From Phycisphaerae bacterium (GTDB lineage: Bacteria; Planctomycetota; Phycisphaerae; Tepidisphaerales; Tepidisphaeraceae): DNA of 51,528 nt. The stretch lies in NCBI GenBank assembly GCA_025924315.1, contig JAICIO010000036.1, forward strand, positions 1 through 51,528. Reading direction: 5' to 3'. The notes under the pieces were generated by a model, which was not told where the DNA came from, searched no databases, and worked only from the letters and a program-made list of their open reading frames with translations. Positions 745 through 46,964 of this stretch are shown here, piece after piece. Both the position numbers and the translations under genes were made by a program. The first letter of the stretch is position 1. The number at the start of each line of letters is the position of its first letter.

Positions 745-969
745 CGGTCTCCTCTTTCTGCCCGAAAGCCGTACACAAGCGACTCGACGGCAATCGGGCG
801 CTACTGGCTTGAAGTGATATCGAATTGGCAAATCGGCGAGGCGAGCGGATTGTGACGGTTTCACCGGCGCTACTCGGACCCTGGCGAAGGTTTATGACGG
901 CTGAACCGAAAGCGCCGGACCGATAAAAATCCGACGAGAGGTATTGGCAAAAACCCGCCGCGCGCGGAC

Positions 970-1149
970 GGGAGGGCGAGGCTCCTGCCGAGCCGTTTTG
1001 CGTTCAATTCAGCAGAGATCGCGACGGCGCGAAGAATGCGAAGGTCTCGCGAAGGGATTGTTTCTTCGCGGCTTTCTTCGCGGCTATCGCGCCTTCGCGG
1101 TCTCCGGTTCCTTTGCAGCAGAACGGCTCGGCAGGAGCCTCGCCCTCCC
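970..1149. repeat. Family B (GGAG-type) inverted-repeat element, split by another element
   Basis: Two arms of 26 bp (970-995 and 1124-1149) are perfect inverted repeats of each other, beginning GGGAGGGCGAGGCTC. Each arm contains a GGCTC/GAGCC mini-hairpin behind a GGAG tag. The only other copy in the window (36994-37063, inside rsmB) has just 18 bp between its arms; here 128 bp separate them, and most of that is a family E element (1019-1100). This reads as one element inserted into another. Nothing gene-like is seen in 745-969 or in the rest of this gap. Confidence 0.85.
1019..1100. repeat. Family E inverted-repeat element nested in family B
   Basis: An imperfect inverted repeat built from GCGAAG/CTTCGC units: it starts TCGCGACGGCGCGAAGA and ends with CGCGCCTTCGCGG. 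A closely similar element is at 19448-19532. It lies between the two perfect arms of a family B element, so it probably inserted there after family B was in place. Confidence 0.75.
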
Positions 1150-1187
1150 ACAGGTCCGCGGAGGGCGTGACCCGAGATAGGCGCAAA

Positions 1188-27064: not shown

Positions 27065-27087
27065 CCACCGCAAACCGCTCAGCAATT

Positions 27088-27164
27088 GTAGGGTCCGCTT
27101 CAGCGGACCGGTTACTTCCTTCTGTTCGAACGACGAATAACCGGTCCGCTGAAGCGGACCCTAC
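27088..27164. repeat. REP-like family A2 element (77 bp)
   Basis: Two inverted GTAG arms whose hairpins read GGTCCGC-TTCA-GCGGACC. Compared with A1, one stem base pair is swapped from G-C to C-G on both sides. The same length as 44622-44698. It lies between secA and the nucleotidyltransferase gene. Confidence 0.9.
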
Positions 27165-27217
27165 AATGCGCGCGGTGGCGTTCGACAATTCCATCAGATC
27201 ACGCGATCATTTCATGC

Positions 27218-36490: not shown

Positions 36491-36570
36491 CATTTAGCCG
36501 CGCGGGCTTGCCCCGCGCGAGACGTCATTCGCCCCGCGGCGATCGCGCGGGGCAAGCCCCGCGGCTAAAT
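36491..36570. repeat. Family C inverted-repeat element (80 bp)
   Basis: Arms of about 30 bp begin CATTTAGCCGCG and end CGCGGCTAAAT; each contains a GGGC/GCCC hairpin behind TTAG. The copy inside the TMTC-like gene (45924-46003) is also 80 bp. It fills nearly all of the gap between rsmB and dprA. Confidence 0.88.
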
Positions 36571-36583
36571 AATGCTACTGCAT

Positions 36584-37906
36584 CTACGATTTTCGAGCGA
36601 ATACCGCCACGTATCCGCCATCGTGATATCGCTTCGGATCCGGATCAAAACTCGGCAACGTCGATCGCTCGCGCACAAGCTCGAACTGCGAATACTGCTC
36701 CCCAAACCACTTCGCGATCGCCTCGTTCTCCTCCCGCCACACGCTGCACGTGCTGTAAATCAGGAGCCCACCCGGCACGACGGAATCGACCGTATCGCTC
36801 AGAATCTCCTGCTGAAGCTTTTCGAGAGACTCGAGCGTCTTTGCATCCTGCCGATACCGCGCCTCGGGCCTTCGGGCCAGCACGCCGCTGTTGCTGCAGG
36901 GGACGTCGATCAGAACACGATCAAACGTCTTTGGACGATCCGCGACGTCGCGCATCCAGGCCGCCGTCACGACCGAAACGTTTGTAATGTGTTGGGAGAG
37001 CGAGGCTCCCTCCGAGCCGCTCGCGCGATCGGAAAGACGGCTCGGCGGGAGCCTCGCCCTCCCGGCAAGCAAGGCGCGCAATCCCTCCGTCCGAGCACGA
37101 TTTGGATCGACCGCGAGGACTTTTCCGGCCAGTCCAACCTTCTCCGCGAGTTGGAGCGTCTTCGTGCCGAATCCGCAGCAGCGATCGAGGGCGGATTGGC
37201 CGGGTTGCACGTCGCATTCTTCCACGACGCGCGCCGCGGTCGCGTCCTGCACCTGCGAGATTGCGCGCCGCGACCAATCCGCGAGCGTCGCCTGTTTCGC
37301 GTGCTGGACGACGAACATTCCCGCCTGCTCATGCGGCGTGATTGTGACGCCCTCGGCCTGCAGATCATCTACTTGCGCGTCCGCAAGCAACCGCACGAGC
37401 GTCGGCGGCTCGCGATTGTCGTGTTCGGCGAAGCGAATCGCTTCGTCGTGTCCGAGCAGTTTCACAAGTCGATCGAACAAGTCTCGCGGATGCGACAGGC
37501 GGATCGCGGGATCGTCGATCTTCGGATCCGCCTCGCGGGTCGCTTTGCGGAGGACGGCGTTCACAAATCCCTTGGCTCGCGCGCGCCCGAATCGCGCCGC
37601 CTGTTCGACCGCTTCATTCACTGCGGCGGACGCCGGGACACGCGTGAGGAAGCGAAGCTGATACAGCGCGATCGCCATAATCTTTTGCGCCAGTGGATCG
37701 ATATCATTCAGTTTTCGCCCCGAATGATGAACGATGAGATGCTGGAGCAGGAGGAAATTCTTGATCACGCCGACGCGGATCTGCTCTGCGAGTGCGAGAT
37801 CGCGCGGATCGGTTGGCGAAGGGACCGTTTTGCGGATCAGATTGGTTCGCCAGTTCGGCAGGGCGGTCGCGTCGAGGGCTGCGAGCGCAAAATCACGGGC
37901 GCTCAT
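36584..37906 (-). CDS. rsmB: 16S rRNA m5C967 methyltransferase RsmB, carrying an in-frame repeat
   Basis: 440 residues. The N-terminal NusB-like RNA-binding domain (about 1-130) is followed by the SAM methyltransferase domain: motif I DRCCGFGTKT (about 241-250), motif IV DVPCSNSG (Cys near 337) and motif VI YSTCSV (Cys near 387), the two Cys of RNA m5C enzymes. Residues about 281-305 are encoded by a family B element and read AGRARLPPSRLSDR then ASGSEGASLSQ; they fall between two Rossmann-fold elements, where normal RsmB goes directly on to the next strand. The frame is intact on both sides. The ATG overlaps the fmt stop by four bases. Confidence 0.9.
   Translation of the reverse strand: MSARDFALAALDATALPNWRTNLIRKTVPSPTDPRDLALAEQIRVGVIKNFLLLQHLIVHHSGRKLNDIDPLAQKIMAIALYQLRFLTRVPASAAVNEAVEQAARFGRARAKGFVNAVLRKATREADPKIDDPAIRLSHPRDLFDRLVKLLGHDEAIRFAEHDNREPPTLVRLLADAQVDDLQAEGVTITPHEQAGMFVVQHAKQATLADWSRRAISQVQDATAARVVEECDVQPGQSALDRCCGFGTKTLQLAEKVGLAGKVLAVDPNRARTEGLRALLAGRARLPPSRLSDRASGSEGASLSQHITNVSVVTAAWMRDVADRPKTFDRVLIDVPCSNSGVLARRPEARYRQDAKTLESLEKLQQEILSDTVDSVVPGGLLIYSTCSVWREENEAIAKWFGEQYSQFELVRERSTLPSFDPDPKRYHDGGYVAVFARKS
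36994..37063. repeat. Family B element inserted in rsmB (70 bp)
   Basis: Arms of 26 bp around 18 bp, in inverted orientation: left GGGAGAGCGAGGCTC..., right ...GAGCCTCGCCCTCCC. The right arm differs from the perfect copy at 1124-1149 by one base, the left by a few. It lies wholly inside the rsmB reading frame and adds about 24 codons. Confidence 0.88.
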
Positions 37907-44603: not shown

Positions 44604-44621
44604 GGTGTCCATCCTGATCTT

Positions 44622-44698
44622 GTAGGGTCCGCTTTAGCGGACCGGTTATTCGCCTTTTCGAACGAATGGAGTAACCGGTCCGCTGAAGCGGACCCTAC
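44622..44698. repeat. REP-like family A2 element (77 bp)
   Basis: Same length as 27088-27164. The left arm loop is TTTA instead of TTCA while the stem GGTCCGC/GCGGACC is unchanged. Followed after ten bases by a family D element. Confidence 0.9.
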
Positions 44699-44708
44699 AA
44701 TGCTCGCT

Positions 44709-44783: not shown

Positions 44784-46964
44784 ATGAGCCTCACCGCCAC
44801 TGGTGTCACGACTGACTTGGAAAGGCCCGCGCCAACGACGCGGTGGGGCGCAATCGCGTTCGGTTGCCTGCTGCTCATCGTGGCTTCCATCGTCGCCTAC
44901 TGGCCCGTCTCGCATAACGGTTTCACCACCTATGACGATCCCGATTACGTCACGGACAACGGTTACGTGAAGATGGGCCTGACGGCCGACAGTGTGCAGT
45001 GGGCATTCACGAACACGCAACAGTCGGCGAACTGGCATCCGCTGACGTGGCTCTCGCACATGCTCGATGTGGATCTGTTCGGGGCCGACAATGCGGCGGC
45101 GCAGCACTGGATGAGCGTCGGCATTCACATTGCCGCGGCGATCGTTTTGTTTCTGACGTTGCTGTGGATGACGAGCGCGCCCGGATGCAGTTTGTTCGTC
45201 GCGGCGCTGTTCGCTGTGCATCCGCTGCGCGTGGAATCGGTCGTTTGGGCCGCCGAGCGAAAAGATGTGCTCAGCGCGCTCTTCTGGATGCTGACGATGC
45301 TCGCGTATTGGTTTTACGCGAAGAAAAAGTCGGCGGGGCGTTACGTGCTCGTCGTGATCTGCATGGTCCTCGGGCTGCTCGCCAAGCCCATGCTCGTCAC
45401 CCTGCCGCTTGTGCTGTTGCTTCTCGATTTTTGGCCGCTTGGTCGATTTGGGCGCGAAACTCCAATGAAGCTTTTTATCGAGAAGCTTCCACTCTTCGCG
45501 CTAAGCATCGCCGCCGCGATTGTGACGATCGTTGCGCAGAAGAGCGGTCAGGCGGTGGGGGACCTGACGTTCTATCCGCTTGGCCTGCGGATCGAGAACG
45601 CGATCGTTTCTTACGCAGCGTATTTGCTGAAGACGGTTTGGCCGATGCAGCTCTCGCCGTTCTATCCGCATCCGGGGATGTGGGAGAATCCCACAATTCC
45701 GATGGGGCGCGTTCTGCTCTGTGCGGGCGTGCTCATCGCGATCACAGCGCTGGTCATCGTGCTTGCACGTCGCGCGCCCTATTTGCTGATGGGATGGTTA
45801 TGGTATGGGATCACCCTCTTGCCTGTGATCGGAATTGTGCAGGTCGGTAAGCAGGCGATGGCGGATCGGTATACGTACATTCCGTCGATCGGGCTGTACA
45901 TCATGATCGCCTGGGGATTTGCTCATTTAGTCGCGGGGCTCGCCCCGCGCGAGACTTCAACCGGCGACGAGCGCTCGCGCGGGGCGAGCCCCGCGGCTAA
46001 ATGGGGAGCTAAAGGGGGTCTGGTTGTAATTGCTACGATTGTCATACTGCTTTGCGTCATCCGCACGAATCGTCAGACGCGTTACTGGAAGAACGATCTC
46101 ACCCTCTGGTCGCGGGCGCTGGAGATCGATCCGCATAACTTCCTCGCCCTCGACATGATCGGGAATTACTACCTGAAGCACGGCGACGCGGCGCGGGCGA
46201 TGGCGCAGTACAACGCGGCCCAGCAGGCCCGGCCCAATGCAGTCGAACATCAGCACGACATGGCGGGGAACGTTTATGCTGCTCAAGGTGACACGGATCG
46301 CGCGCTGCGCGAGTACGAACGGGCCGTGAAGCTTCAGCCTAATCTTCCGGAAACGCACAACAACCTCGGCCAAATCTATTCGCAGCGAGGCGAATCGGAC
46401 CGGGCGATCCAGGAATTTCGCGCGGCCATTCAATACGGCCCGATGCTGCCGCAGCCGTATCACAATCTCGCACTGGAACTGGCGCGGCGCGGGGATGTGA
46501 AAGACGCGATTCAGTACTGGGAGAAGGCGATTGAGCTCAAGCCGGATTACGCCGCGGCGCACGAAGGTCTCGGCCACGCGCTGCGCATGCAAGGCGATCT
46601 GAAAGGGGCCGCGGACCAGTATCGCGCGGCCATCAAAAACGGCCTGCGAAAACCGGACGTGCTCGGCGCACTTGCGTGGATCCTGGCAACCGATCCGCGT
46701 GACGACGTCGCGGACCCGAATGAAGCGATGAAGCTGGCGGAGGAATGCAATCGGTCGGCATCAGGGAACAACCCACTCGTGCTCGACACGCTCGCGGCCG
46801 CGCAGGCGCGGAATGGCAAGTTTGTCGATGCGATCGCAACGGCGCAGAACGCGGTGAAGCTCGCGCAGTCGGCGGGCAATGACAAACTTGCCAACGGCAT
46901 TCAAAGCCGCATCATGTTGTATCAGCGGAATCAGCCGTACCTCGAAGCGCCGCAGACAAAGTAA
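44784..46964 (+). CDS. TMTC-like polytopic membrane protein with C-terminal TPRs, carrying an in-frame repeat
   Basis: 726 residues. About ten membrane helices occupy residues 23-425; TYDDPDYVTDNGYVK, NWHPLTWLSHMLD and HPLRVESVVWAAERKD are hallmarks of the TMTC/PMT-like family (O-mannosyltransferase type, GT-C fold), with the acidic YDDP loop as likely catalytic element. About six TPRs follow (440-640), e.g. HNNLGQIYSQRGESDRAIQE. It may glycosylate exported proteins; this is inferred from the family. Residues about 380-406 (AGLAPRETSTGDERSRGASP) come from a family C repeat and lie in a loop before the last helix, at a topologically harmless position. No obvious ribosome site. Confidence 0.85.
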   Translation: MSLTATGVTTDLERPAPTTRWGAIAFGCLLLIVASIVAYWPVSHNGFTTYDDPDYVTDNGYVKMGLTADSVQWAFTNTQQSANWHPLTWLSHMLDVDLFGADNAAAQHWMSVGIHIAAAIVLFLTLLWMTSAPGCSLFVAALFAVHPLRVESVVWAAERKDVLSALFWMLTMLAYWFYAKKKSAGRYVLVVICMVLGLLAKPMLVTLPLVLLLLDFWPLGRFGRETPMKLFIEKLPLFALSIAAAIVTIVAQKSGQAVGDLTFYPLGLRIENAIVSYAAYLLKTVWPMQLSPFYPHPGMWENPTIPMGRVLLCAGVLIAITALVIVLARRAPYLLMGWLWYGITLLPVIGIVQVGKQAMADRYTYIPSIGLYIMIAWGFAHLVAGLAPRETSTGDERSRGASPAAKWGAKGGLVVIATIVILLCVIRTNRQTRYWKNDLTLWSRALEIDPHNFLALDMIGNYYLKHGDAARAMAQYNAAQQARPNAVEHQHDMAGNVYAAQGDTDRALREYERAVKLQPNLPETHNNLGQIYSQRGESDRAIQEFRAAIQYGPMLPQPYHNLALELARRGDVKDAIQYWEKAIELKPDYAAAHEGLGHALRMQGDLKGAADQYRAAIKNGLRKPDVLGALAWILATDPRDDVADPNEAMKLAEECNRSASGNNPLVLDTLAAAQARNGKFVDAIATAQNAVKLAQSAGNDKLANGIQSRIMLYQRNQPYLEAPQTK
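45924..46003. repeat. Family C element inserted in the TMTC-like gene (80 bp)
   Basis: CATTTAGTCGCGGGGC... to ...GCCCCGCGGCTAAATG, arms of 30 bp around 20 bp; same length and arms as 36491-36570. It is wholly inside the coding frame and adds about 27 codons. Confidence 0.9.

Follow-up and report, generated by a model that had tools for sequence, protein, structure and literature searches.

The window analysed here, the whole 51,528-nucleotide stretch of a contig from a Phycisphaerae bacterium, carries rsmB, whose product contains the Pfam domains NusB and Methyltr_RsmB-F and was assigned as a 16S rRNA m5C methyltransferase consisting of a NusB-like domain and an RsmB/F methyltransferase domain. 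The closest named relative of the window's genome (G000) is a Humisphaera MAG, likewise of the Phycisphaerae, while a scan of genome contigs for near relatives of the gene returned a single one, in the G016 MAG. A search of 61 genomes recovered RsmB from 38, with matches that are interrupted near residues 283 and 305 in many relatives. The first-pass annotation had placed an inverted repeat in frame inside an otherwise intact rsmB, and this was confirmed: the open reading frame is intact despite the insert, both Pfam domains are recognised, and the protein is otherwise complete (Table 1). The reported length of 70 bp and the 26-bp arms proved correct as well, the two arms being 92% complementary and 18 nt apart. 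Read on the sense strand, the element runs from the first base of codon 282 to the first base of codon 305.

Table 1 Features of the window discussed in the text.
Feature	Position	Strand	Remarks
rsmB	36584..37906	-	440 aa; assigned from ORF, Pfam and conserved columns
REPIN-type element, 70 bp	36994..37063	-	occupies codons 282-305 of rsmB with the frame kept; adds 22 aa net
REP-like unit 1 (5' arm, rsmB sense strand)	37038..37063	-	GGGAGGGCGAGGCTCCCGCCGAGCCG; perfect consensus
Spacer between units	37020..37037	.	differs among copies
REP-like unit 2 (inverted)	36994..37019	+	GGGAGAGCGAGGCTCCCTCCGAGCCG; 2 substitutions relative to consensus
Further inverted pair of family B	954..1165	.	arm cores 970-994 and 1125-1149; long spacer, intergenic
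REPIN from another REP family (TTTAGCCGCGGGGC type)	45924..46003	.	in frame in + ORF 44784-46964

Alignment with relatives, proposed initially as a way to locate the insertion, revealed a single gap of exactly 22 residues that is empty in all 29 relatives (MAFFT), at a site that is otherwise length-invariant among them. The inserted residues 284-305 read ARLPPSRLSDRASGSEGASLSQ, between LLAGR and HITNV. The net gain amounts to 66 bp compared with an element length of 70 bp. Relatives carrying the peptide but lacking the repeat, which would have spoken against an insertion, were searched for and none was found.

An AlphaFold2 model built on the 29-sequence alignment reached a mean pLDDT of 94 and a pTM of 0.90, and resembles E. 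coli Fmu/RsmB (1sqf/1sqg; TM 0.79-0.82 for 1sqf). The insert is the sole poorly defined part, with mean pLDDT values of 71, 50 and 68 in the three blocks covering residues 281-310, and it sits between helix 270-284 and strand 310-314, in line with the earlier placement of the peptide in a loop of the Rossmann domain. According to the model, the 22 residues are thus a disordered loop in an otherwise confident RsmB fold. In class I methyltransferases the SAM site and the alphaB-beta3 turn are at opposite ends of the sheet, which makes it plausible that RsmB tolerates the insert, and we infer that the enzyme still works.

A less favourable reading is that rsmB was already inactive, or that the insert is an assembly artefact, and that the frame was kept by chance. 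The G000 assembly is a draft of 262 contigs that frequently end in a repeat of this very family, another copy has an in-frame stop within its gene (L021, see below), and chance alone keeps the frame in one third of cases. However, the contig runs through the element and its copy-specific sequence with rsmB continuous on either side, the rest of the protein is intact, and the catalytic motifs PCS (C337) and TCS (C387) are retained in conserved alignment columns. Moreover, rsmB is single-copy as judged by a search of the genome with an E-value cut-off of 1e-20. We therefore regard this reading as improbable.

The repeat, termed family B hereafter, extends beyond rsmB and beyond the window's genome. 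Its arm core gave 111 exact or one-mismatch matches genome-wide and none with a reversed control, which is far above chance, the 26-bp arm gave 138 matches at ≤2 mismatches in the 6.57 Mb of G000, and full-length copies of the element number in the dozens. A catalogue compiled from individually retrieved loci, rather than by a whole-genome scan, comprises at least 55 inverted pairs and 22 single arms, widely spaced pairs among them. The ends of the element are sharp (GGGAG...CTCCC) and lengths fall mostly at 69-76 bp (typically 70-76 bp), with conserved arms around a variable spacer of typically about 20 bp. The initial description of a mobile, selfish repeat is borne out. Among 392 planctomycete genomes the arm is patchy, with matches at ≤1 mismatch in 12. 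Within its own family it is rich in G000 and G020 only, two genomes of different genera with 138 matches each. Family B was near-absent from the remaining 24 genomes of the family, and identical cores occurred at low copy in distant planctomycete families. The patchy distribution suggests horizontal spread or repeated loss.

The family-B unit follows the 26-bp consensus YGGGAG-GGCGAGGC-TCCN-GCCGAGCC-G. The whole element folds 6.6 sd (ssDNA) and 7.9 sd (RNA) below shuffled sequences, none of 200 shuffles being equally stable, and the RNA reaches −62.9 kcal/mol compared with a shuffle mean of −35.4. Each arm is also predicted to form an imperfect hairpin with a GGAG foot, a 4-nt loop and an 8-bp stem that a tandem G-A mismatch interrupts, although a single arm folds no more stably than shuffled sequence. 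Target duplications, which the first-pass annotation had suggested looking for at the insertion site, were absent (k of 3 or more) from all 39 copies tested, and the insertion sites showed no regularity beyond a preference for Y at position −1 and for T/A at position −2. Family B thereby shows the properties of REPs and REPINs, being a short, high-copy, imperfect palindrome in inverted pairs with a variable spacer, without target duplication and mainly extragenic. Its foot departs from theirs, reading GGAG (consensus YGGGAG) where the canonical REP foot is GTAG (or GT[AG]G) or CGTC.

Fixed-length inverted ends, a typical size of 70-76 bp and a large number of copies would also suit a classical MITE, that is, a DDE transposon reduced by deletion, bounded by terminal inverted repeats of 26 bp and moved by a cut-and-paste transposase. 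DDE-type elements leave a target duplication of fixed length, however, of which the 39 copies show no trace; furthermore, an imperfect hairpin with a foot at its 5' side is predicted for every arm, and single arms and widely spaced pairs exist. A MITE is thus unlikely. We consider it very probable instead that the rsmB insert is a REPIN-type non-autonomous mobile element that moved in within the lineage of this genome and was kept as a tolerated, in-frame disordered loop.

Under the REPIN-type reading, the element that moves would consist of two 26-bp REP-like hairpin units, inverted relative to each other and separated by a short variable spacer, and its mobilisation would presumably depend on a RAYT-type Y1 HuH transposase that acts on single-stranded hairpins. 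A net gain 4 bp short of the 70-bp element would agree with insertion on the 3' side of a tetranucleotide already present at the target, as in IS200/IS605 transposition, while a small (4-bp) target deletion would fit the 66 bp equally well. Retention in rsmB would be possible because a 66-bp net change keeps the frame and brings in no stop codon, and because the 22 residues would protrude from between helix alphaB and strand beta3 as a disordered loop, at the end of the sheet opposite the SAM site and the catalytic cysteines.

G000 encodes 10 Y1-transposase genes (PF01797) and G020 four, and none of these genes has a family-B repeat closer than 1.5 kb (0/10 and 0/4). No convincing RAYT partner was found in G000, G020 or five more repeat-bearing genomes; in genome G416, two loci (L130 and L142) each have one single family-B repeat nearby, and arm-like matches at L131, L134 and L137 (5-6 mismatches) were weak and taken as chance. 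No cognate RAYT of the REPtron kind was found for family B, whereas one accompanies a GTAG REP family of G000: locus L086 (G000:C56:29371) is a canonical REPtron with a 180-aa Y1 transposase frame between inverted (G/C)TAGGGTCCGCTTCAGCGGACC repeats. The (G/C)TAGGGTCCGCTTCAGCGGACC family also occurs in the window, at 27085-27167 and 44620-44700.

In-gene copies were surveyed with a three-periodic Markov coding model and ORF analysis. As this model missed rsmB itself, the gene counts are lower bounds. Eight further G000 copies lie in frame inside long ORFs with a one-frame coding signal on both sides, giving about nine in-frame genes in G000 (rsmB included), and three in-frame copies, likewise with coding signal to either side, were found among the 38 pairs of G020. 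Hosts in G000 include PutA, a Gfo/Idh oxidoreductase, PMT-like glycosyltransferases, a cytochrome c protein and a beta-ketoacyl synthase. The copies in PutA (L020), PMT (L102) and the cytochrome (L124) lie in variable linkers or loops, and the PMT homologues are without the insert. The insert at L009 is missing from same-genome paralogues and from G020 homologues; loop length among these paralogues (net 27 aa, 71-bp element) was too variable to define an exact boundary. A further copy, at L021:1501-1570, is read in the frame EGEAPAGPS within a 652-aa beta-mannosidase-like ORF and has an in-frame stop in its spacer, and its host is possibly a broken gene. Only about 10 of the 55 pairs lie in genes while about 80% of the window is coding, from which we conclude that most insertions into genes are either purged by selection or avoided.

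The reading frame of these copies is strongly biased. In 10 of the 12 in-gene copies (G000 and G020 pooled) the first arm is read as [W/R/G]EGEAPAEP, an agreement with a chance probability of about 7e-4, the exceptions being the rsmB copy, with its basic reading GRARLPPSR..., and L044. Stop codons were ruled out as the cause, since the three phases are almost equally stop-free (.89/.92/.88). This bias suggests that selection mainly keeps copies read as an acidic, probably unstructured peptide. The unusual basic frame of rsmB, together with the length invariance of the site in the 29 relatives, could be taken to mean that the peptide was recruited for a new function of RsmB, for example contact with rRNA or the ribosome. 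Such a role is highly improbable, however: the segment is present in one genome only and is predicted to be disordered, the two substitutions in its second arm alter the peptide without visible constraint, and it is one among many insertions in unrelated proteins.

Elements of other families are also found within proteins. The REPIN of the TTTAGCCGCGGGGC type in the window encodes HLVAGLAPRETSTGDERSRGASPAAKW between membrane segments of a 726-aa membrane/TPR protein, and a second copy of this type, at 36491-36570, lies between the stop of rsmB and the DprA-like ORF next to it. On a larger scale, a DinG-type helicase was found to enclose, in the same frame, a complete Y1/RAYT HuH transposase of about 225 aa, at L257:1563-4310 (G000:C124) and L258:815-4210 (G020:C191), in both cases flanked by in-frame inverted REPs of a family that differs between the two genomes. 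Matches over the full length of the query place the DinG-Y1 arrangement in six genomes of the bacterial family (G000, G020, G021, G013, G010 and G005), with G003 as a probable seventh. The nested Y1 proteins retain the HuH and Tyr motifs and are 46-55% identical to the G000 copy, compared with 65-80% for the helicase parts where these are well aligned. Other members of the family and class have DinG without the nested Y1; at the same site, the insert is small or missing in G007, G023 and G015, and G022/G001 have no more than a short REP-peptide pair. Y1 of the same subfamily was also found in frame in two valyl-tRNA synthetases of 1308 and 1354 aa (L289:2601-6524 in G026; L290:912-4973 in G051), where it is located directly before (T)H(I/V)TVATTRPETML and flanked by tandem REP-encoded peptides (TGVPPV..., THGRDARAT). 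Further in-frame cases are an Eco57I-type methylase (L291 in G047) and DUF1156 DNA-methylase-like proteins (L292 in G009; L293 in G004), with arrays of REP-encoded peptides flanking Y1 in L291 and L293.

A literature search returned no description of such nested transposases. The broader proposition, that REP-type elements of Phycisphaerae are protein-colonising mobile DNA, stands in our estimation at even chances: family-B REPINs would mainly occupy the frame giving a benign acidic peptide, related families would carry whole REP-flanked RAYT-type HuH transposases in frame in housekeeping proteins, much like inteins but with no splicing (about seven genomes for DinG, two for valyl-tRNA synthetase and three for DNA methylases), and the insert in rsmB would represent this at its smallest.

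The first-pass annotation had likened the insert to the Rickettsia palindromic elements (RPEs) as a rare class of selfish DNA, with no planctomycete case described. The functional parallel stands: like RPEs (Ogata et al. 2000, summarised in a 2024 review, PMC10969869), family B is palindromic selfish DNA held in frame in unrelated protein genes (nine in G000, three in G020) and encodes a surface or loop peptide. The original-class RPEs, however, measure about 100-150 bp and form families of their own in another host with another composition. The rarity does not stand, as Di Nocera et al. (2013, PMC3733652) surveyed in-frame intragenic REP dimers, which encode 20-30 aa, across several bacteria, among them Rickettsia conorii, whose RPE-4/6 they classed as REPs, and Opitutus terrae of the planctomycete-related Verrucomicrobia. 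REPs in Planctomycetes were reported in the same survey, while our literature search found no report of intragenic ones, so that the planctomycete case may indeed be undescribed even though the class itself was already known. In-frame REP insertions have also been noted inside tnpAREP genes by Quentin et al. (2018, PMC6006769), who discarded unexpectedly long fusions.

Family B shares with the intragenic REP dimers (PMC3733652) the inverted pairs of short hairpins, the in-frame position in unrelated genes and the otherwise mostly intergenic distribution. In contrast to the GTAG families of Opitutus terrae (PMC3733652), its foot is GGAG, neither GTAG nor CGTC, and its host belongs to a different phylum; its strong reading-frame bias and the absence of a detected RAYT partner further set it apart from these dimers. 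With REPINs/BIMEs (Bertels & Rainey 2011, PMC3116915) it has in common the inverted REP doublets with a variable spacer that form one hairpin, the high copy number and the lack of visible target duplication; Pseudomonas REPINs, however, are almost entirely extragenic (PMC3116915), whereas about one in six family-B pairs is intragenic. Family B is thus a non-GTAG form of the known in-frame REP dimers and not a unique case. New here are the eight additional in-frame copies in G000, the three in G020 and the frame bias, for which our literature search found no earlier report.

The nested transposases would represent a new protein architecture and are possibly more important than the rsmB insert. 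Family B itself provides a natural series in planctomycetes leading from selfish DNA to protein, in which one genome offers intergenic copies, nine in-frame copies and a broken one for comparison, and its frame bias yields a testable prediction of which peptides proteins tolerate.
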